NCBI GenBank assembly: GCA_017519965.1
Contig: JAFWRK010000051.1
Coordinates: 1 to 19,675, forward strand
DNA: 19,675 bases
Reading direction: 5' to 3'
Origin: Bacilli bacterium
GTDB lineage: Bacteria; Bacillota_I; Bacilli_A; RF39; UBA660
The notes under the pieces were generated by a model. That model saw only the letters and a list, made by a program, of their open reading frames with translations, made no database searches and was not told where the DNA came from. Shown here one piece after another: positions 1,290-10,288 of the stretch (position 1 is its first letter; each line of letters opens with the position of its first letter). The position numbers and the translations under genes are program-made.

Positions 1290-1315
1290 GGTAAAATAAG
1301 TAACAGGTGATAATA

Positions 1316-2623
1316 ATGTTTGAAAGTTTAGGCGATAGATTACAAAATGCAACTCATAAAATAAAGGGATATGGAAAAATAACTGAAGATAATATTTCTG
1401 ATATGATGAAAGAAATACGTTTAGCTTTACTTGAAGCAGATGTAAACTATAAAGTTGTAAAAGAGTTTACTAATACAGTTAAAGAAAAAGCTTTAGGTAG
1501 TGAAGTTGCTTCTTCTATAAATCCTGGAGAATTATTTGTAAAAATAGTAAAAGATGAATTGACTGAATTATTAGGTGGAGAAAGTGCTCCATTAAATACT
1601 ACAGGTAATCCTGCTATATTAATGTTAGTTGGTTTACAAGGTTCTGGTAAAACTACTACTATTGCTAAGATAAGTCAATTTTTAAGAAAAAAACATTCAA
1701 AAAAACCTTTATTAGTTGCTGGTGATGTATATAGACCTGCTGCTATTGATCAATTAAAACAATTGGGTAAACAATTAAATATAGAAGTATATGAAGAAGG
1801 AAAAAAGGATCCTGTAGAGATAGTAAATAATGCTCTTAATTATGCTAAAGAAAATAAATTTGATTATGTTTTAATAGATACTGCTGGTAGATTACATATT
1901 GATGATGAATTGATGGATGAATTAGATAATATTAAAAAAGCTGTTAATCCACAAGAAATATTATTAGTAATAGATGCTATGATGGGTCAAGATGCTATAA
2001 ACGTAATAACTGGCTTTAATGAAAAATTACCTTTAACTGGTGTTGTATTAACTAAATTAGATGGAGATACTAGAGGTGGAGTAGCTTTATCTGTTAGACA
2101 TTTAACTAATGTTCCTATTAAATTTATGGGTACTAGTGAAAAATTAGATGGTCTTGAATTATTTGATCCTGAAAGAATGGCCGGAAGAATTTTAGGTATG
2201 GGAGATATAGTTTCATTAGTTGAGAAAGCTACTGAGTCAATTGATGAAAAAGCTGCTGAAAAAACTGCTAAGAGAATGCAAGAAGGTAAATTTGATTTAG
2301 AAGATTTTTTAGATACTATGAAGCAAATGAAAAAGTTAGGACCTTTAGAAAACTTATTAAAGTTAATACCTGGAGCTAAAAAGATGGGATTGAATGATAT
2401 AAAAATAGATCCTAAACAAATGGCTCATATAGAAGCTATAGTATTATCTATGACTCCTAAAGAAAGAAGAAATCCAGATATAATTAAAGCTAGTAGAAAA
2501 ACAAGAATAGCTAAAGGGTCTGGTACTTCTGTTCAAGAAGTTAATAAACTATTACAACAGTTTGATCAAATGAAAAAGATGATGAAACAAATGAGTAATG
2601 GAAATTTTAAGATGCCTTTTTAG
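1316..2623 (+). CDS. ffh: Signal recognition particle GTPase Ffh (SRP54)
   Basis: This protein binds signal sequences of nascent membrane and secreted proteins and, with SRP RNA and the FtsY receptor, delivers ribosomes to the membrane. The 435 residues show the N domain (1-90), G1 loop GLQGSGKTTT (106-115), DTAGR (188-192) and TKLDGD (246-251) of the SRP-type GTPase, then the methionine-rich M domain (about 295-435) that holds the signal peptide and 4.5S/6S RNA. Length is normal for the family. I start at the ATG at 1316 rather than the in-frame GTG at 1307, because that GTG is itself part of the AGGTGAT ribosome site and MFESLGDRL is the usual N-terminus. The gene is monocistronic here, between two terminators, without the ylxM partner common in Firmicutes. 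Confidence 0.98.
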   Translation: MFESLGDRLQNATHKIKGYGKITEDNISDMMKEIRLALLEADVNYKVVKEFTNTVKEKALGSEVASSINPGELFVKIVKDELTELLGGESAPLNTTGNPAILMLVGLQGSGKTTTIAKISQFLRKKHSKKPLLVAGDVYRPAAIDQLKQLGKQLNIEVYEEGKKDPVEIVNNALNYAKENKFDYVLIDTAGRLHIDDELMDELDNIKKAVNPQEILLVIDAMMGQDAINVITGFNEKLPLTGVVLTKLDGDTRGGVALSVRHLTNVPIKFMGTSEKLDGLELFDPERMAGRILGMGDIVSLVEKATESIDEKAAEKTAKRMQEGKFDLEDFLDTMKQMKKLGPLENLLKLIPGAKKMGLNDIKIDPKQMAHIEAIVLSMTPKERRNPDIIKASRKTRIAKGSGTSVQEVNKLLQQFDQMKKMMKQMSNGNFKMPF

Positions 2624-2638: not shown

Positions 2639-2665
2639 ACAATTGTTTTCGTTTTACATAGTATA
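2639..2665 (+). promoter_or_regulatory. Sigma-K/sigma-E-like sporulation promoter of the CotD-like gene
   Basis: The -35 element is AC (2639-2640, within AACA). Sixteen bases later comes CATAGTATA (2657-2665), which fits the mother-cell sigma-K consensus (AC, about 16 bases, CATAnnnTA). The same geometry and very similar flanks (ACAATT, then ATAAAAT) recur at 7235-7261. A sigma-A reading (TATAAA at 2662-2667) lacks a well-spaced -35. Confidence 0.5.
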
Positions 2666-2683
2666 AAATAGGAGGTATTTGTT

Positions 2684-3010
2684 ATGTATGATAATGACGT
2701 TATTAATAATTTTTATGTAGATGGAAACAATAATAATATAGATAGTGATATGAGTACTGATACTAATATGAATAGTATGAATAATATGCCTAGTATGAAT
2801 GGTATGAGTATGTGTAATCCAATTAATGAGGGTACACAAGAAAAATGTGTACATCGTACTATATATCATGATGTTCCACATGTTTGTCCTGTTCATACTC
2901 GTATAATTAATCATCATATTTATAGACATTTTTATCAACCTAGATATACTTGTAGTGAAGAAAATACAGTAAGTAATGTTCAATGTGGATCTTGTTGCAA
3001 CTATAGATAG
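2684..3010 (+). CDS. CotD-like inner spore coat protein
   Basis: A 108-residue protein. The first 45 residues are Asn/Met/Ser-rich low complexity. The C-terminal half is His/Cys/Tyr-rich, with VPHVCPVHTRIINHHIYRHF at residues 64-83 followed by a conserved-looking segment that ends CGSCCNYR. This His-rich VPHxxPxHTxxxNHxxY pattern and Cys-Cys end match what I know of CotD, an inner spore coat protein of Bacillus. The fit is by recognition, not by search. The ATG is set by GGAGGT seven bases upstream. The gene stands alone between two terminators behind a sporulation-type promoter, which agrees with the assignment. The complementary strand carries an open frame (2654-2983) that is a shadow. If correct, the organism makes spores or descends from a spore former. 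Confidence 0.7.
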   Translation: MYDNDVINNFYVDGNNNNIDSDMSTDTNMNSMNNMPSMNGMSMCNPINEGTQEKCVHRTIYHDVPHVCPVHTRIINHHIYRHFYQPRYTCSEENTVSNVQCGSCCNYR

Positions 3011-3036
3011 AAAGATTATTTTAATCTTTCTTTTTT
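3010..3036 (+). terminator. Terminator after the CotD-like gene
   Basis: A perfect 9-bp stem GAAAGATTA / TAATCTTTC (3010-3018 with 3022-3030), a TTT loop and six T. Confidence 0.8.
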
Positions 3037-3037
3037 A

Positions 3038-3067
3038 TTGACATTATGTATATACTTTGTATATACT
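3038..3067 (+). promoter_or_regulatory. mazEF promoter
   Basis: A consensus -35 TTGACA (3038-3043) and a -10 TATACT (3062-3067) are 18 bases apart, about 20 bases upstream of mazE. Confidence 0.7.
3048..3066 (+). promoter_or_regulatory. Candidate MazE/MazEF autoregulatory operator
   Basis: Two identical 8-bp palindromes GTATATAC lie at 3048-3055 and 3059-3066, with an 11-base repeat (one helical turn). They fill the spacer and overlap the -10 box. Type II toxin-antitoxin complexes usually repress their own promoter through such repeats, so a dimeric AbrB-fold MazE is the expected ligand. The binding role is inferred. Confidence 0.55.
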
Positions 3068-3086
3068 ATATATAGGTGGTGGTTTA

Positions 3087-3329
3087 ATGGAAGCTAGACT
3101 ACAAAGATGGGGTAATTCTGATGGAATTAGGATACCTAAAAGTTTATTAAAAGCATTAAATTTAAAAACTAATGATATTGTAGATTTAATACAAGAAGAT
3201 AATAAAATTATTATTTCTAAATCTAGTAAAAAAAAGGTATCTTTAGAAACTTTAATTAAAAATTACGATGGACCAAATTTAGCTAAGGATTATGATTGGG
3301 ATGATAAGGTTGGAAAAGAAATATGGTAA
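3087..3329 (+). CDS. mazE: MazE-like antitoxin (AbrB/SpoVT fold)
   Basis: An 80-residue antitoxin. The N-terminal half is an AbrB-type DNA-binding domain (RWGNSDGIRIPKSLL, about residues 7-21, resembling the RWGNS..VRIP motif of E. coli MazE). The tail DYDWDDKVGKEIW matches the end of E. coli MazE (DW...KEVW), the part that wraps onto MazF. I use the ATG at 3087, not the in-frame TTG at 3057. The latter lies inside the promoter, while AGGTGGTGG just upstream of 3087 is the ribosome site. The stop overlaps mazF by 7 bases, the usual coupling that keeps antitoxin made first. Confidence 0.93.
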   Translation: MEARLQRWGNSDGIRIPKSLLKALNLKTNDIVDLIQEDNKIIISKSSKKKVSLETLIKNYDGPNLAKDYDWDDKVGKEIW

Positions 3330-3664
3330 AAAAATATGTTCCTAAACAAGGTGATATTATTTATTTGGATTTAAATCCTACTAAAGGTCATGAACAGTAT
3401 GGTATTAGACCTGCTATTGTAATAAGCAATAACACATTTAATCAATTTACTAAGATGGCTATAGTTTGTCCTATTACTTCAAATACTAAAAGTTTTCCTA
3501 CTCATTACTTATTAGAAGACACTAAAAAGATTTCTGGCTCTGTTTTATGTGAACATGTTAGAAGCATTGATTATGAAAGTAGAAATATAACATTTGTTGA
3601 AGCAGCAAGTGATAATGATTTTTTAAGTATAATTACTTTGATGAATGCATGTATTGAAGAATAA
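3323..3664 (+). CDS. mazF: MazF-type endoribonuclease toxin
   Basis: A 113-residue PemK/MazF toxin, an mRNA interferase that cuts single-stranded RNA at short motifs and is blocked by MazE. The start MVKKYVPKQGDIIYLDLNPT, then KGxEQ and RPAIV (R29), and the conserved Thr52 (ITSNTKS region), closely follow the E. coli MazF layout. The SH3-like core is full length, so the toxin looks intact. Its ATG lies within the last codons of mazE, so expression is translationally coupled. Similarity to the E. coli-type MazF, rather than to the chromosomal NdoA type of Bacillus, hints at horizontal acquisition; this is inference. The cleavage motif cannot be read from the sequence. Confidence 0.95.
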   Translation: MVKKYVPKQGDIIYLDLNPTKGHEQYGIRPAIVISNNTFNQFTKMAIVCPITSNTKSFPTHYLLEDTKKISGSVLCEHVRSIDYESRNITFVEAASDNDFLSIITLMNACIEE

Positions 3665-3698
3665 ATTTACACTGTAAATATTTTGTCTAATTTTTTTG
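3665..3698 (+). terminator. Weak hairpin after mazF
   Basis: ATTTAC / GTAAAT (6 bp, ACT loop) directly after the stop, followed by an interrupted T-rich stretch. It is weaker than the other terminators of the window and may be leaky. The half-site ATTTACA recurs at 3710-3716. Confidence 0.3.
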
Positions 3699-3703
3699 AT
3701 TTG

Positions 3704-3732
3704 TTGATAATTTACAATAAGTAGTTTATTCT
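3704..3732 (+). promoter_or_regulatory. Probable rpoZ promoter
   Basis: TTGATA (3704-3709) and TATTCT (3727-3732) with 17 bases between. The ribosome site GGGAG (3740-3744) follows. Confidence 0.4.
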
Positions 3733-3753
3733 AATAATAGGGAGTGTGATATA

Positions 3754-3951
3754 GTGATTTATCCTTCTATTGACAAGCTTCTTAATATTGTGGACTCTAA
3801 ATATGAATTAGTTCATATTGCGGCAAGAAGAAGTAAACAAATGTCAAAAGATAAACATTTTCAATTAGCTGAAACAGAATATAAAAGTACTAAAAATATC
3901 GGAAGAGCTCTTGAGGAAGTAGCAGAGGGACTTATCAAGGTTAATAAATAG
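3754..3951 (+). CDS. rpoZ: RNA polymerase omega subunit
   Basis: A 65-residue protein with the family hallmarks: YPSIDKLLN and VDSKYELVHIAARRSKQM near the N-terminus, and the second conserved box IGRALEEVAEGLI near the C-terminus. Omega binds the beta-prime subunit and helps it fold and assemble into RNA polymerase. Length matches Firmicutes RpoZ. The start is a GTG (3754) placed 9 bases after GGGAG; there is no usable in-frame ATG nearby. The gene is monocistronic, with its own terminator, and not in the usual gmk-rpoZ-coaBC cluster. Confidence 0.93.
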   Translation: MIYPSIDKLLNIVDSKYELVHIAARRSKQMSKDKHFQLAETEYKSTKNIGRALEEVAEGLIKVNK

Positions 3952-3972
3952 GAAGTTATGCTTCCTTTTTTT
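3951..3972 (+). terminator. Terminator after rpoZ
   Basis: GGAAG / CTTCC stem, TTATG loop, seven T; starts at the last base of the stop codon. Confidence 0.75.
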
Positions 3973-3973
3973 A

Positions 3974-3982
3974 TGGTATACT
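3974..3982 (+). promoter_or_regulatory. Extended -10 promoter for recX
   Basis: TG-G-TATACT, directly after the T-tract of the rpoZ terminator and 17 bases before the recX start. No -35 is visible. Confidence 0.5.
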
Positions 3983-3999
3983 AATTCTAGGTGATGTTT

Positions 4000-4749
4000 A
4001 TGAAAGTGCTTAAATATAAAAAATTAACTGGAGGAAAATATAAAGTCACTCTAGATACTATGGATATAGTATTATATGAAGAAGTTATATTAAAATATAA
4101 TCTATTAATTACTAAAGAAATAGATCCCTTAGAGATAGAAAAAATAAGCAATGATAATATGTTTTATGAAATATATTATGTTGCGATAAAAAGTATTAAT
4201 TCTAGAATTAAAAGTGTATATGATATTAGAATGTTTTTAAAAAAGAAAGAATATCCAATAGATATTATTGAATCGGTTATTGATAAGTTATTAGAGCAAG
4301 GATATTTAAATGATTTGATCTTTACAAAATCTTTTATTAATAATCAAATTGTTACAACTAATAATGGACCTAATAAGATAAGAAAAGAGTTATTAGATCA
4401 TAGAGTAGATGAAAAAATTATTTATAATGAATTAGAAAGTTTTACTACTGATATTCAGTTAGAAAAGATTGAAAAATTAATAAATAGATTTTATAAAAGT
4501 AACCATACTAGAGGTGGATTTGTTTTAAAGAAAAAGATAACTAATGATTTATTAAATTATGGATATGATATGGAATTAATTGATAAAGAAATAAATAAGT
4601 TTGATTTTTCTAATGATAAAGATATAGCAAAAAAAGAATATGGAAAGTTATATAGAAAATTATCTAAAAAATATAATGGTGTTGAGCTAGAGAGAAAGAT
4701 TAAAGAAAAAATGTATATGAAAGGTTTAGTTTATGAAGAAGATATTTAA
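4000..4749 (+). CDS. recX: RecX regulatory protein
   Basis: A 249-residue protein that in the family binds RecA filaments and limits or modulates recombination and the SOS response. It is built from repeated three-helix units. One is clear at about 65-110 (SINSRIKSVYDIRMFLKKKEY ... LLEQGYLNDLIFTKSF) and a second follows with NNGPNKIRKELLDHRV. The length and the beta-rich N-terminal extension resemble Firmicutes RecX. I start at the ATG at 4000; the in-frame GTG at 3991 is part of the ribosome site AGGTGAT (3989-3995). Its last 17 bases overlap the next gene, so the two are translated together. Confidence 0.85.
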   Translation: MKVLKYKKLTGGKYKVTLDTMDIVLYEEVILKYNLLITKEIDPLEIEKISNDNMFYEIYYVAIKSINSRIKSVYDIRMFLKKKEYPIDIIESVIDKLLEQGYLNDLIFTKSFINNQIVTTNNGPNKIRKELLDHRVDEKIIYNELESFTTDIQLEKIEKLINRFYKSNHTRGGFVLKKKITNDLLNYGYDMELIDKEINKFDFSNDKDIAKKEYGKLYRKLSKKYNGVELERKIKEKMYMKGLVYEEDI

Positions 4750-6151
4750 CAATTATAAGTTTTTGTTTTTTAGTTTATTTACATCTTTTTCTTTATTTTT
4801 AACAACATTTATTAATAAAGAATCTGATTACATGTGGCATGTTAAAGCAGGAGAATATATGTTTAATCATGGTCCAATTGTTAAAGATGTATTCTCATGG
4901 TCTTTAAAAGGTGCATATTGGATGAGCCATGAATGGTTATTTGAAGTAATAATATATGCACTAAAAAAACTAATGGGTAATTTTAGTTTAATATTTTATG
5001 TATTTGTATGTGTAATGACAATACTATTTATAATATATACTTATAATAAAGAAAAAGTGAAGAATAGGTTATTTATGAGTTTATTATGGGTAGTATGTTG
5101 CTCTGTAATGATATGTTATATACAGGTAAGACCTCACTTAGTTAGTTACATTTTATTCACATTAACTATGTATTCTATTTACGATTTGATTAATAATGAG
5201 AATTCCAAAAAAATCTATTTTTTACCTTTATTGACTATTCTTTGGTCTAATTTGCATGGCGGTTCTAGTAATTTAGGATATTTAATGTGCTTTATTGCAT
5301 TGTTTGCTGGTTTATTTAGCTTTAGATTTCCTAAATTTATTGCTAAAAGTTTTACTAAGAAACAATTATTAACTTTATTATTAGTTGGTTTAGTTAGTAT
5401 ATTTTGTACTGCTATAAATATTCATGGATTTAAAATGACTATATATCCTTATACTAATATGATGGACAAAACTATGCTTGATAATATATTAGAGTGGAGA
5501 ATTACTGATATTAATGATTTAACTCATTCATTATTTTTTGTTATTGCTACTATAATATTCTTTATTCTTTTATGTAGTAAGAAAAAGATTAAGCTTATTG
5601 ATTTAGTAATGTTTGGAGTTGGAGTATTTTTAGGACTTAAGTCTATTAGATTTTGGGCATATTTATACTTAATATCATCTTTCTTTGTGTTTGATTATGT
5701 TGAAGAGTTTGAGTTTCATTATTTTAAGTATGCAGTTATGTTTGCTAATATAATGTTTATTGGTTTCTTTATTATTAATATTAAAAAAGTTTATAAAGAA
5801 ATTAATACAAATTATATATATACGGATTCAACTATTATTAATAAGATTAAAGAAGTTAAGTCAGAAAGATTATATAATATCTACAATGTTGGTGGAGAAT
5901 TAATATATTATGATATACCTGTTTTTATAGATGGTAGAGCTGATCTATATTCACAAAATGACTTATTTGAAGATTATTTAAAAATTGATGATTTAGATTT
6001 AGATTTTAAGTCTCAACTAAATAGATTCAATTTTGATTATTATCTAACTAATATCGGTGGAAAACTTGATAATTATTTAAACTCTCACGATATGGTAGAG
6101 ACTGTTGTTTCTTCAAACGGACTAGTTTTATACAAAAAGAAAACAAGTTAG
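4733..6151 (+). CDS. Multi-pass membrane protein, GT-C glycosyltransferase-like
   Basis: 472 residues with about ten hydrophobic segments. After the first membrane segment comes DYMWHVKAGEYMF (32-44), then DVFSWS and WMSHEWLFE (63-71). Later there are RPH (133-135), NLHGG (173-177), and a soluble C-terminal part with YNVGGEL and VFIDGRADLY (397-406). This signature (Asp near the outer end of the first helix, FSW, HEWL, IDGRxDLY) is one I associate with bacterial membrane proteins of the GT-C class that would use polyprenyl-phosphate sugars at the outer face. Substrate and product are unknown and the activity is inferred. It overlaps recX by 17 bases, with its ATG inside recX and no separate promoter. 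There is no functional link to RecA that I know of. Confidence 0.75.
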   Translation: MKKIFNNYKFLFFSLFTSFSLFLTTFINKESDYMWHVKAGEYMFNHGPIVKDVFSWSLKGAYWMSHEWLFEVIIYALKKLMGNFSLIFYVFVCVMTILFIIYTYNKEKVKNRLFMSLLWVVCCSVMICYIQVRPHLVSYILFTLTMYSIYDLINNENSKKIYFLPLLTILWSNLHGGSSNLGYLMCFIALFAGLFSFRFPKFIAKSFTKKQLLTLLLVGLVSIFCTAINIHGFKMTIYPYTNMMDKTMLDNILEWRITDINDLTHSLFFVIATIIFFILLCSKKKIKLIDLVMFGVGVFLGLKSIRFWAYLYLISSFFVFDYVEEFEFHYFKYAVMFANIMFIGFFIINIKKVYKEINTNYIYTDSTIINKIKEVKSERLYNIYNVGGELIYYDIPVFIDGRADLYSQNDLFEDYLKIDDLDLDFKSQLNRFNFDYYLTNIGGKLDNYLNSHDMVETVVSSNGLVLYKKKTS

Positions 6152-6169
6152 TAATTAACTTGTTTTTTT
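6141..6169. terminator. Bidirectional terminator between convergent genes
   Basis: A perfect 10-bp stem AAACAAGTTA / TAACTTGTTT with a GTAAT loop. It has T-rich DNA on the plus side and A-rich DNA (6132-6143) that serves the minus-strand prsA. It contains stop codons of both genes. Confidence 0.8.
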
Positions 6170-7169
6170 ATTGTTGATTTGTATTTGATGATGCTTGTTT
6201 AATTAAATTATCCATTAATTCGTTATAAGCTTTTTTAACTGTATTATCATTCCATGTTACACCATTTTCTTCTCTTATTTCAATTAATGAATTGTAATAT
6301 AATGTTTTGTCATCGTTTAGTTTTTGTTCTCTTATTTTTTCTTTAATTTCTGTTTTAACTTTCTTTAAAGCTTTTTTCTTTTCTTGTTTAGTTTTTAATA
6401 TTATATGATATCCATAAGATGATTTTACAGGTTCTTTAGTATATTCATCTACTTTTAATTCTGCACATGCTTTAGAGAATTCTGCTACCATGTCATCATA
6501 GGCAAAACTTCCTAAGTCTCCACCTTTAGATGCTGTAGCTTTATCATCAGAGTATTTCTTTGCTAACTTATCAAAGTCTTCTCCATCATTTAATTTTTTA
6601 ATTACTTTTTTAGCTTTTTCTAATGCTTTTTCTTCTGCTTCTGCTTTTTCTTCATCTGTTGCATCATCGCTACTATTAACTGCTATTAATATGTGTTTTG
6701 CACTCATATCTCCATAATAGTTTTCATCATAGTATTTTTTAATTTCATCATCTTTTAGATTCTTTTCTACATAATCATTTACAGCTTGTTCTCTTTTATA
6801 TTCTAATCTTAGTATTTCCTCTAATTCTTTTTCATCTTTTGCTCCAAAGTATTGAGCAATTACTTGATTAAAAGTTGATTCATCTGAGTAATAACTCTTA
6901 ATTTGATCTATTTGATCTTTTACATCTTTATCTTCCTTATCTGTTGATGGATATTTATCTTTAAATAATTTTAAATCTATCATATCAACTAATTTAGATA
7001 TATTTGTTGTTTTTATTTCTTTATAATAATCATTTGCTGTTATTTCTCCATCCTCAAATCCTACAACTGCTTTTTTACTAATCTTAACTTCTTTTCCACA
7101 TCCTGTTGTTAATAAAGAAGCTATAACTAAAAAAGAACCTATTCCTATTATTAATTTTTTATTTTTCAT
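6168..7169 (-). CDS. prsA: PrsA-like lipoprotein foldase (parvulin peptidyl-prolyl isomerase)
   Basis: A 333-residue lipoprotein. Residues 1-24 are a signal peptide ending in lipobox TTGC, with Cys24 as the lipidated residue. An N-terminal helical chaperone domain follows, then a parvulin domain at about 155-260 (AKHILI, FDKLAKKYSDD, GGDLGSF, EPVKSSYGYHIILK), then a C-terminal helix. PrsA folds secreted proteins at the outer face of the membrane, so it probably serves the exported surface proteins of this cell. The minus-strand start is fixed by AGGAGGT. It is monocistronic, with its own strong promoter and a shared terminator. Confidence 0.93.
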   Translation of the reverse strand: MKNKKLIIGIGSFLVIASLLTTGCGKEVKISKKAVVGFEDGEITANDYYKEIKTTNISKLVDMIDLKLFKDKYPSTDKEDKDVKDQIDQIKSYYSDESTFNQVIAQYFGAKDEKELEEILRLEYKREQAVNDYVEKNLKDDEIKKYYDENYYGDMSAKHILIAVNSSDDATDEEKAEAEEKALEKAKKVIKKLNDGEDFDKLAKKYSDDKATASKGGDLGSFAYDDMVAEFSKACAELKVDEYTKEPVKSSYGYHIILKTKQEKKKALKKVKTEIKEKIREQKLNDDKTLYYNSLIEIREENGVTWNDNTVKKAYNELMDNLIKQASSNTNQQ

Positions 7170-7187
7170 ACTGACCTCCTGTAAAAT

Positions 7188-7216
7188 ATAATAGCAAAAA
7201 ATAATTTTTAGTGCAA
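7188..7216 (-). promoter_or_regulatory. prsA promoter (minus strand)
   Basis: Read on the minus strand: TTGCAC, 17 bases, TATTAT, with TG one base upstream of the -10 (extended). It lies just before the AGGAGGT of prsA. Vegetative sigma-A type. Confidence 0.7.
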
Positions 7217-7234
7217 TAAATTATAGATATAATC

Positions 7235-7261
7235 ACAATTTTTGGCTTTTTCCATACAATA
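7235..7261 (+). promoter_or_regulatory. Second sigma-K/sigma-E-like promoter, for the tiny membrane peptides
   Basis: AC (7235-7236, in CACA), then 16 bases, then CATACAATA (7253-7261). The geometry is identical to 2639-2665, and the flanks ACAATT and ATAAAAT are shared. CATACAAT also fits the sigma-E -10. There is no sigma-A -35 at a proper distance from TACAAT. Confidence 0.5.
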
Positions 7262-7292: not shown

Positions 7293-7388
7293 ATGTGTAA
7301 TAATAATACAACTGGAACATCTTCTGCAGCTGCTATTCTATTAGTATTATTTATTCTTTTAATAATTATCTTAGGTGCTTATATTTAA
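7293..7388 (+). CDS. Tiny YjcZ-like transmembrane peptide 1
   Basis: 31 residues: a short polar head (MCNNNTTGTSSAAA) followed by one hydrophobic helix, ILLVLFILLIIILGAYI, that fills the rest. The form xLLVLFILLIIxxGAxx is what I know from the tiny Bacillus membrane proteins named YjcZ (annotated as sporulation protein by family). GGAGGAG lies 8 bases upstream of the ATG. The gene is followed after 12 bases by a paralogous small gene. The function of the family is not known to me beyond its link to spore formers. Confidence 0.72.
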   Translation: MCNNNTTGTSSAAAILLVLFILLIIILGAYI

Positions 7389-7400
7389 GGAGGTGAAATA

Positions 7401-7523
7401 ATGAATAATTGTGGAGATAATAATGTTTCAAAGGGTAGAGGTAATGGCTTTTTAGTAATTGTAATTTTATACATTTTACTTGCAATAATTTTAGGTGGTT
7501 CTTTTAACAATAATACTTTTTAA
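7401..7523 (+). CDS. Tiny YjcZ-like transmembrane peptide 2
   Basis: 40 residues. The polar N-terminal part (MNNCGDNNVSKGRGN) is followed by the hydrophobic stretch GFLVIVILYILLAIILGGSF and an Asn-rich end. It is clearly of the same design as the peptide encoded 12 bases upstream, as if by tandem duplication and drift, and both have a Cys near the N-terminus. A perfect AGGAGGTG starts within the stop codon of the first gene, so the pair is one transcript. Confidence 0.7.
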   Translation: MNNCGDNNVSKGRGNGFLVIVILYILLAIILGGSFNNNTF

Positions 7524-8811: not shown

Positions 8812-8851
8812 AAAAGAAGATAAAAAGAATAAAATAGGTGGTGTGTTTATT

Positions 8852-10288
8852 ATGGCTATGCAAATACAAAGGGGCTTAGTAAAATACAAGGATAGAAGTG
8901 ATATTATATGTACTTATGGTGTTACTGATAATGGAAATCAATATTATTTTTTAGATGATACTAAATTGCCTAATGGTAATATTATTGTTAGTACAACTTT
9001 ATTGGAATCAGTAGATCCTTTAGCTGTTGCTTCTCATATTGGTGTAATAGATAGTGAAGGTAATGAAGTAATTCCTTGTAATAATAAAACTGTTAAGTCT
9101 ATATCTGGTGATATTTTACTTGTTGAAAAAGCTAATCCTGAAAGCCCTAATGTATTGGAAAGCTTAAGACAACGTGAAGATCCTGCATATGCAACTAAAT
9201 TAGTTACAACACCAGCTGCTATTAAAGATAATATGAATAAGTTGATGGGTGTTGATGGAAGATTTGTATTTAATGATCAATTCTCTGAAGCAACTATTTG
9301 TGATATAGATGGTAAAAATTTAATTAATAATGAATATTATAGTTTTATTAGTGTTAATGATGAAAAAATATATTTTAGTAAGAATATAGAAAATTCAGAA
9401 GTTGTTGAATATCCTTTATATCCTGTTAATGAAGAAAAGGTTGAGGAAAATGCACCTACATTAAATGTAGAAACTACTTCTGTTACTCAAGATTCTATTG
9501 AAAAAGCTCTTAGTGATGAAAATCAACCTGTAGAAAATAATGAAGCTACTAAATTAGATGAAAGTGTTTATACTGAGGAAGTTAATATTCCTGTAGAAGA
9601 ATCTCCAGTAGAAACTGAAGTTCAAGCTAAAGAAACTCCAGTAGAGGAAGCACCTGTTGAAGAAGTTCCAGCAGAAGAAGTAAAAGAAGAAGTACCTGAA
9701 GCTAATGTTTCAGTTGAGTCAGTTCCTGAAAAAGAAGAGGAAGCTGTTATTCCTGTTGAAAAGGTTAAGGAAGAAAAAGAGGAAATTAAGATAGATATAG
9801 ATACTCCAGAAGAAAAAATTGAAGAATCTGTAAAACAAGAAGAGGAACCAATTAAAGATGAAAAGGTTTATGTAGAAGATTCATATGATTATGATTATGA
9901 TAATGGATATAATAATTTATTAGAAAGTTATGATTATTCTAATTCTGCATCTACTAATTTACCTCAGAAATCATTCTTTGATGATGTTACTATAACTATT
10001 TCAAATTTAGTAGAATTAAATAGAAATCTACAAGGTATGATAGATGATTATGAGATGAGATTAGCTAAATGTGATGCTTCTCGTAAAAAACTTGTTGAAT
10101 TATCTAAATCACAAGCTAGAGAAATATCTAGTTTAAATGCTAGAATTGCTAGATTAGAGACTGATAAACAAGTATTAGAACAAAAATTAGCTGCATTCTC
10201 TCCTACATCTAATAATGATTTAGTTAGAGCTATGGCTGATGCTCAAAATATATTAGGTCAAAGTAGATATAGAACAAATAATGATTAA
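8852..10288 (+). CDS. Acidic-repeat coiled-coil protein of unknown function
   Basis: 478 residues without signal peptide or membrane segment. Three regions are visible. Residues 1-195 form a folded-looking domain (IQRGLVKYKDRSD, then Val/Ile-rich beta-like sequence). Residues about 195-340 are a long Glu/Val/Pro repeat (units like VEEAP, VEEVP, PAEEV). Residues about 378-450 form a heptad-like coiled coil (LNRNLQGMIDDYEMRL to DKQVLEQKLA) with a short tail, preceded by a Tyr/Asp-rich patch (DYDYDNGYN). I do not recognise the family. Such a plan suits a scaffold or adaptor with a flexible acidic spacer. I start at the ATG at 8852 (MAMQIQRG); the in-frame GTG at 8843 overlaps the ribosome site AGGTGGTG. 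It is monocistronic and well expressed-looking (strong ribosome site, own promoter and terminator). Confidence 0.78.
   Translation: MAMQIQRGLVKYKDRSDIICTYGVTDNGNQYYFLDDTKLPNGNIIVSTTLLESVDPLAVASHIGVIDSEGNEVIPCNNKTVKSISGDILLVEKANPESPNVLESLRQREDPAYATKLVTTPAAIKDNMNKLMGVDGRFVFNDQFSEATICDIDGKNLINNEYYSFISVNDEKIYFSKNIENSEVVEYPLYPVNEEKVEENAPTLNVETTSVTQDSIEKALSDENQPVENNEATKLDESVYTEEVNIPVEESPVETEVQAKETPVEEAPVEEVPAEEVKEEVPEANVSVESVPEKEEEAVIPVEKVKEEKEEIKIDIDTPEEKIEESVKQEEEPIKDEKVYVEDSYDYDYDNGYNNLLESYDYSNSASTNLPQKSFFDDVTITISNLVELNRNLQGMIDDYEMRLAKCDASRKKLVELSKSQAREISSLNARIARLETDKQVLEQKLAAFSPTSNNDLVRAMADAQNILGQSRYRTNND

Follow-up and report, generated by a model that had tools for sequence, protein, structure and literature searches.

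The window analyzed here, the whole 19,675-nt stretch of DNA from a Bacilli bacterium, contains a gene for a CotD-like spore coat protein and, further downstream, a pair of genes for tiny YjcZ-like membrane proteins, each preceded by a very similar promoter-like site. Comparison with relatives makes it probable that these sites are sigma-K promoters of a mother-cell regulon and that, in many relatives, cotD is split by elements resembling the skin element that would be excised in the mother cell. The elements matter more than the promoter pair. The features that bear on this reading are listed below.

1307..2623, + strand: ffh (TIGR00959, 616.6 bits), the 5' neighbor of cotD in many relatives and the bait for finding relatives
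2639..2665, + strand: predicted cotD promoter of sigma-K type, AC-N16-CATAGTATA
2684..3010, + strand: gene for the CotD-like spore coat protein (PF11122), 108 aa, uninterrupted
2867..2889, + strand: predicted empty attachment site (attB) inside cotD, codons HDVPHVC, with the shared ACA at 2878-2880
7233..7261, + strand: predicted yjcZ promoter of sigma-K type, -35 TCACA (fitting Bacillus subtilis KCACM), -10 CATACAATA
7293..7388, + strand: first YjcZ-like tiny membrane protein, 31 aa (TIGR01732 E=0.0023, 17.6 bits; PF09680 E=0.0013; both below cut-off)
7401..7523, + strand: second YjcZ-like tiny membrane protein, 40 aa, directly 3' of the first (TIGR01732 E=0.00018, 21.1 bits)

Loci of relatives were collected by Ffh, using the best 80 of at least 568 relatives (71-91% identity to the Ffh of the window), which gave 81 loci including the window. 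Their records are nearly all metagenome-assembled genomes with titles naming Bacilli, Bacillales, Firmicutes, Erysipelotrichaceae, Tenericutes, Mycoplasmatota, Mollicutes and, once, Clostridiales; Candidatus Faecimonas and Candidatus Faecisoma are among them, and the titles give a rumen or gut origin for many. Sporulation machinery was surveyed in 19 of the relatives' genomes, chosen from the loci and mostly those with long contigs, and cotD and recombinases were surveyed in 32 genomes, 13 of which were added because cotD looked cut.

The CotD-like protein of the window matched PF11122 with E=0.0012 and 19.8 bits, below the curated cut-off of 22, and is called CotD-like for that reason; of 28 aligned orthologues, 18 reach E<=0.01 against this profile, the best with 2.3e-6, and the alignment has 10 invariant columns. 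Likewise, neither YjcZ-like protein reaches the TIGR01732 cut-off of 21.35 bits, which is exceeded in the genomes of 6 of 19 relatives, and tandem yjcZ pairs recur among relatives. The assignment of both genes to spore-related families, made in the sequence-only reading, is plausible in that orthologues match, although the single-sequence profile scores stay below the cut-offs.

Elements that cut cotD

In many relatives the cotD open reading frame (ORF) ends at a single codon, HEVP[HQ], and then runs into shared sequence, while the C-terminal half of cotD is found kilobases downstream of the cut. Programmed frameshifting was considered for the short cotD ORFs and rejected because of this distant second half. 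Among the 81 loci, attachment-site patterns showed a split cotD in 15 and an intact one in 32 (window included), so that 15 of the 47 loci that could be classified are split; the other 34 had no classifiable cotD, two of them (L007 and L010) showing a cut gene whose left end is a variant. By genome, cotD was cut in four, intact in 14 and not found in one of the first 19; in G022 the two halves lie on different contigs and no closely similar recombinase is present, and G031 and G032 were left out of the cut and intact groups. The codon at which the relatives' genes are cut is the attB codon of the window, and, on its sequence, the window's cotD is an empty site.

Joining of the flanks at the shared ACA gave a full-length, in-frame CotD in 7/7 loci, these being the loci with both cotD halves on one stretch. 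The seven measured elements span 2810-5627 bp, and the genes constant to the seven complete elements are those for a Fic protein, a small ORF of, in most cases, 58 aa and a serine recombinase of ~520 aa (the automatic call for the L013 recombinase starts late). In the one element tested, Fic matched PF02661 and the recombinase matched PF00239, PF07508 and PF13408. The variable cargo includes MazEF, GNAT and NERD proteins, amongst others.

Recombinases sharing at least 76% identity with the L018 enzyme were present in 14/32 genomes, all with a cut cotD (in G006, the first half only), and none at least 60% identical was found in the 14 genomes with an intact cotD; with 13 of the 32 genomes added for a cut-looking cotD, these counts are not frequencies. 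The L029 and L070 elements share 98.8% identity over 4877 bp, whereas the ffh DNA of the same two loci is 72.2% identical, and thus entire elements pass from one species to another and enter the same codon.

No cotD halves were present in viral contigs with relatives of the recombinase (8 of 9 examined). Two IMG/VR contigs, L379 and L380, carry a recombinase 82% identical to the cotD-element type and a similar small ORF with no cotD half, and in L379 the small ORF is preceded by CATAnnnTT.

A MazEF pair (3057-3664) lies directly 3' of cotD in the window, and homologous MazEF genes stand just before the second cotD half in the elements of L013, G020 and G026. The L013 proteins are 61% and 77% identical to those of the window, and L020 has MazE-like sequence after an intact cotD. 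The MazEF of the window may have been exchanged with an element.

Recombinase operons and other possible target genes

The motif CATAnnnTT occurs in the last 45 nt before the small ORF and recombinase in 19 of 20 distinct operon sequences, 17 of which fit CATAnnnTT[TA]A; for the cotD-clade recombinases in genomes with a cut cotD the count is 13/14. This is the -10 class found at spoIVA, the sigma-E control described below, and it suggests that the operon would be read by sigma-E. Six of the 20 operons belong to relatives located elsewhere, so CATAnnnTT is not special to sporulation genes. In Clostridioides difficile the small directionality factor CD1234 is controlled by sigma-E, with a start site 14 bp 5' of the start codon (PMC5025042), and SpoIVCA of B. 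subtilis is described as controlled by sigma-E and SpoIIID.

Other genes appear to be cut by related elements. A LysM amidase gene of G008 contains a 56%-identical recombinase, with residues 7-291 and 310-397 flanking ~6.7 kb, and G018 has a similar pair of LysM amidase pieces. In G025 SpoIVA adjoins a more distant recombinase from residue 121 onward, and in G021, where the spoIVA copy looks degenerate (residues 118-430), from about residue 118. These LysM and spoIVA cases come from partial alignments, flanks having been joined for cotD, and G025 offers the second half only. Two contigs of G018 end exactly at that SpoIVA codon; as no overlap was found, we do not take them to prove that reads of excised and integrated forms were mixed. 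Related recombinases of G007 and G026 stand beside a P-type ATPase gene, so not all members target sporulation genes. Possible splits of other genes were seen beside related recombinases in G015, G016, G020 and G031.

The alternative that survives best sees in the cotD elements integrative islands of the ordinary kind, which would simply inactivate cotD and not be excised during development. Many islands use serine integrases, the Fic, MazEF, GNAT and NERD cargo is island-like, the recombinases beside the P-type ATPase gene carry CATAnnnTT as well, and excision here is inferred, not observed. Nonetheless, we consider this alternative unlikely, as both cotD halves are intact and in frame in all seven joins, the first half retains its sigma-K -10, 19 of 20 recombinase operons have a sigma-E-like -10, related elements strike other sporulation genes, and the layout matches that of known intervening elements (PMC5025042, PMC5595907, PMC10747680).

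Promoters in the window and among relatives

The sequence-only reading described AC, exactly 16 bases and CATAnnnTA upstream of both genes, and both sites are present as described, at 2639-2665 (ACAATTGTTTTCGTTTTACATAGTATA) and 7235-7261 (ACAATTTTTGGCTTTTTCCATACAATA). The ATAAAAT noted after the -10 is also found at both, where it overlaps the final three bases of the -10. From the end of the site to the ATG there are 18 nt for cotD (ATG at 2684) and 31 nt for yjcZ (ATG at 7293). The statement that no other promoter of the window looks like these two stands, since the third strict copy (13655, minus strand) falls within a coding ORF of the opposite strand.

Counted within the window, the motif gave little information. 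The strict N16 form was observed three times against a shuffled mean of 1.5 (three or more in 59/300 shuffles), and the N16/17 form three times against 3.02 (170/300). A longer form with ACAATT, allowing up to two mismatches, had 18 matches with 13.0 expected; exact ACAATT-N12-CATAnnnTA occurred twice with 0.03 expected (0/300 shuffles), this form having been chosen after both sites had been seen. Significance from the window alone was rejected, as the motif count is at chance level, and the case for the promoters thus rests on comparison with relatives. Judged by that comparison, and significant by it only, we take both predicted promoters of the window to be real.

At short yjcZ genes of relatives (26-28 aa) CATAnnnTA with AC at N16/17 was present in 16/17, L137 being among the fits. 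Of the 39 cotD upstream regions, window included, 35 have a CATAnnnTA -10 (L020 is counted via a site 53 nt away, its nearer site not being CATAnnnTA), and 9 have AC at N16/17 (2.63 expected), amongst them the window. The near-identical -35 shared by the two sites therefore holds within the window and is conserved at yjcZ, but it is not conserved at cotD orthologues: in the four intact-cotD relatives that rank highest in Ffh identity (L003, L004, L008 and L009), AC is missing at N16/17 upstream of cotD. The idea that cotD genes inherited an AC -35 from a common ancestor was rejected, as AC is absent from most orthologues. TRGGC stands 28-30 bp before the cotD -10 in 19/39 regions, for example in L015, L018 and L026, with 0.58 expected. 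We take TRGGC to be a GerE-like site; a literature search found no GerE consensus in print. G004, which has no GerE-size protein, has no TRGGC box at cotD.

Other genes allowed the -10 class to be compared. For cotE, CATAnnnTA was found at 14/14 located sites (of 18 full matches), with AC in 6/14 (0.89 expected); at L283 and L285 the scorer used the farther site, and the nearer one is CATAnnnTA too. For gerE it was found within 75 nt in 12/12 located (of 17 loci). At spoIVA, used as the sigma-E control and located at 11 of 19 loci, CATAnnnTA was found in 0/11 and CATAnnnTT in 9/11; SpoIIIAA, sought as a second sigma-E control, was found in 0/18 genomes. The background at 8-60 nt before sampled starts was 51/1065 for CATAnnnTA and 57/1065 for CATAnnnTT.

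The B. subtilis consensus sequences are KCACM / GCATANNNTA for sigma-K and TYATATTT / KCATANANTN for sigma-E (PMC3416734). As the spoIVA control has no CATAnnnTA, sigma-K fits the window sites better than sigma-E, and the mother-cell regulon that the sequence-only reading had assigned to sigma-K or sigma-E is supported and narrowed to sigma-K. The alternative that both are sigma-E promoters, with cotD and yjcZ as early mother-cell genes, draws on the fit of the yjcZ -10, CATACAATA, to the printed sigma-E -10 as well (PMC3416734). We regard it as improbable, since position 9 is T in the spoIVA controls and mostly A in cotD, yjcZ, cotE and gerE, and since the yjcZ -35 TCACA fits the sigma-K KCACM and not the sigma-E TYATATTT (PMC3416734). 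That both sites of the window match the motif by chance, in AT-rich DNA that sigma-A would read, is least probable of all, for although the strict motif is no commoner in the window than in shuffles, AC is missing from cotD in the four nearest intact relatives and the -10 alone hardly exceeds permuted words at sampled starts, the conservation is position-specific despite divergent spacers (16/17 at short yjcZ and 35/39 for the cotD -10, both versus 51/1065 sampled starts).

A gene-start scan was carried out on 1.19 Mb from G004, G005 and G008, covering 1182 called starts and 8-60 nt upstream of each. The strict motif preceded 10/1182 starts against a mean of 2.66 over 47 permuted patterns. Two of the ten genes encode YjcZ and one a YjcZ-like 52-aa protein; CotE and a LysM amidase account for one each, two short proteins resemble each other, one conserved protein is encoded next to spoIVA, and the remaining two look like chance hits (names by eye except CotE and YjcZ). 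Most of the ten look spore-related, but the highest control, with CA for AC and the same -10, reaches 9, so the scan does not single out AC. It is the orthologous promoters, rather than the scan, that support sigma-K.

A conserved protein of ~150 aa near spoIVA, of unknown function, has a CATAnnnTA -10 at 14 nt in all three sampled genomes (L221:9299, L247:925, L259:7324); its gene is possibly a new sigma-K gene.

Sporulation machinery in relatives

Sporulation in this lineage, which the sequence-only reading had treated as not established, was predicted earlier in print: Field et al. 2024 expect RF39 to be capable of forming spores, spoIIAB and spoIIE being reduced or missing there (PMC10868615). 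This prediction applies to the window only if its RF39-like placement is right.

Among the 19 genomes, PF04542 had 5-10 matches per genome, Spo0A scored above cut-off in 17, SpoIVA in 18 and CotE in 18, and a GerE-type LuxR match in a frame of 67-103 aa was found in 17. A GerE-like stand-alone LuxR-type helix-turn-helix protein of G008 (68 aa) has 1fse, B. subtilis GerE, as its top PDB match (E=1.3e-24). By NCBIfam, G004 has SigE, SigG, SigK, a SigF-like protein, SpoIIGA, SpoVAC and SpoVAD, and G001 has SigK; several of these scores are below the curated equivalog cut-offs. A genome without any mother-cell sigma gene, named in the sequence-only reading as a result that would contradict it, is thus not what these relatives present, with SigK in G004 and G001 and SigE in G004.

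No SpoIIAB-size protein was found in the 19 genomes at the threshold used, where all 26 listed PF13581 matches lie in frames of at least 340 aa; this agrees with the reduced or absent spoIIAB of RF39 (PMC10868615). In G004 (L094:2569-3557), sigF has spoVAC and spoVAD after it. Before it lies a 114-aa ORF that by eye resembles a STAS protein and that matched nothing in NCBIfam, and the gap between this ORF and sigF leaves no space for SpoIIAB. From the missing room in G004 and the PF13581 matches, the control of sigma-F may differ from that of B. subtilis.

Proposed mechanism and points against it

Altogether, these observations are best explained by a mother-cell cascade from sigma-E to sigma-K to GerE that would be retained in RF39-like Bacilli. 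The yjcZ pair would be transcribed from a full sigma-K -35 and -10, and cotD from a sigma-K -10 with, in many relatives, a GerE-like box at the place where a -35 would otherwise assist. In the mother cell, sigma-E would direct expression of the small ORF, a candidate directionality factor, and of the serine recombinase, which would join attL and attR at the ACA core and remove the element. The restored cotD, for which we infer mother-cell expression, would then be transcribed by sigma-K and GerE, while the forespore would retain the element. More broadly, and with somewhat less confidence than for the promoters and cotD elements, we favor a family of small non-phage elements in RF39-like bacteria, each encoding a serine recombinase plus a directionality factor of ~46-64 aa under sigma-E. 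Such elements would favor mother-cell sporulation genes (cotD, LysM amidase, spoIVA), spread between species into the same codon, be excised in the mother cell and be kept in the spore.

Several observations weigh against this reading. Regarding sample and placement, related sequences lie behind all counts, which are therefore not independent; the SigK and GerE evidence comes from relatives; and the window and its relatives are placed as RF39-like Bacilli under an order name that we presume. Regarding promoters, L140 is the sole misfit among the 17 short yjcZ genes, with TATA replacing CATA, and the longer YjcZ-like genes (39-61 aa) have CATAnnnTA in 5/9 and AC in 4/9, with the start probably set inside the gene in at least two of the nine. 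G002, G003 and G005 lack TRGGC at cotD despite having a GerE-size protein, and the cotD upstream region of the window has no TRGGC box. An earlier scan of G004 only, with a cruder gene caller, found the full motif twice against a control maximum of three, and the -10 alone is hardly enriched at starts (CATAnnnTA in 42/1065, other permuted words in at most 38). The cotD-element recombinase operon of L024 has CATAnnnTA, the sole exception of the 20, and no sigma-E -35 was established at the recombinase operons.

Regarding machinery, SpoIIID was matched in 9/19 genomes and never above cut-off, DpaA in 0/19 and SpoIIIAA in 0/18. G001 (locus L001), at 91% the nearest by Ffh of the best 80, has SigK, but neither SpoIVA, CotE, YjcZ, cotD nor a GerE-size protein was found in it, and of Spo0A a piece only. 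These gaps may reflect incompleteness, as several contigs of G001 are short, or a loss of sporulation.

Comparison with known systems

In B. subtilis the sigma-K regulon includes cotD, gerE, cotE and small coat proteins. The predicted regulon resembles it in similar targets, in GerE being found in most relatives and in the pairing of KCACM with CATAnnnTA (PMC3416734). It differs in that cotD of this lineage is mostly without the AC -35 and often has TRGGC at a fixed distance, and in that DpaA and SpoIIIAA were not found in the relatives surveyed.

Like the skin elements of C. difficile (PMC5025042) and B. subtilis, the cotD elements combine a large serine recombinase, a small candidate directionality factor and a putative sigma-E-type promoter, and they split a predicted mother-cell gene that joining restores in frame (PMC5025042). 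Unlike skin, they target cotD (related elements, the LysM amidase gene and spoIVA), are 2.8-5.6 kb where measured, and have the recombinase and the small ORF adjacent in one apparent operon; their host is uncultured and their excision putative. The gin element in gerE of B. cereus ATCC10987 is likewise non-phage, interrupts a small gene expressed late in the mother cell, and combines serine recombination with a further factor (PMC5595907), whereas it measures 28.6 kb and has three recombinases (PMC5595907), compared with one recombinase and the same codon in many species for the cotD elements. The yin element in yabG of C. botulinum also splits a sigma-K-controlled gene and has a putative small directionality factor preceded by a putative sporulation promoter (PMC10747680); it was reported to be unique to one strain, whereas the cotD elements are found in, and pass between, several species.

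Host genes of intervening elements in print are sigK, spsM, spoVFB, gerE and yabG (PMC10747680), and almost all such elements lie in mother-cell-specific genes (PMC6957869), a bias with which the targets of the cotD elements agree. No report of intervening elements in cotD or spoIVA, or of any in RF39, was found in searches of the openly licensed PMC literature. If the present reading is true, cotD, the LysM amidase gene and spoIVA would join the list of host genes given in PMC10747680, and an intervening element would move between distant species into one codon.

The promoter pair would extend the sigma-K/GerE regulon to a lineage predicted, not yet demonstrated, to sporulate. Intact, in-frame halves together with a sigma-E-like recombinase promoter should be maintained only where spore formation continues, and thus the elements would provide independent evidence for sporulation in uncultured bacteria; the element family, if true, would indicate that these bacteria really sporulate.

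Elsewhere in the window, positions 8843-10288 encode a 481-aa protein that, with no Pfam or NCBIfam match above cut-off, is characterized by a middle part rich in Glu and Val by eye.

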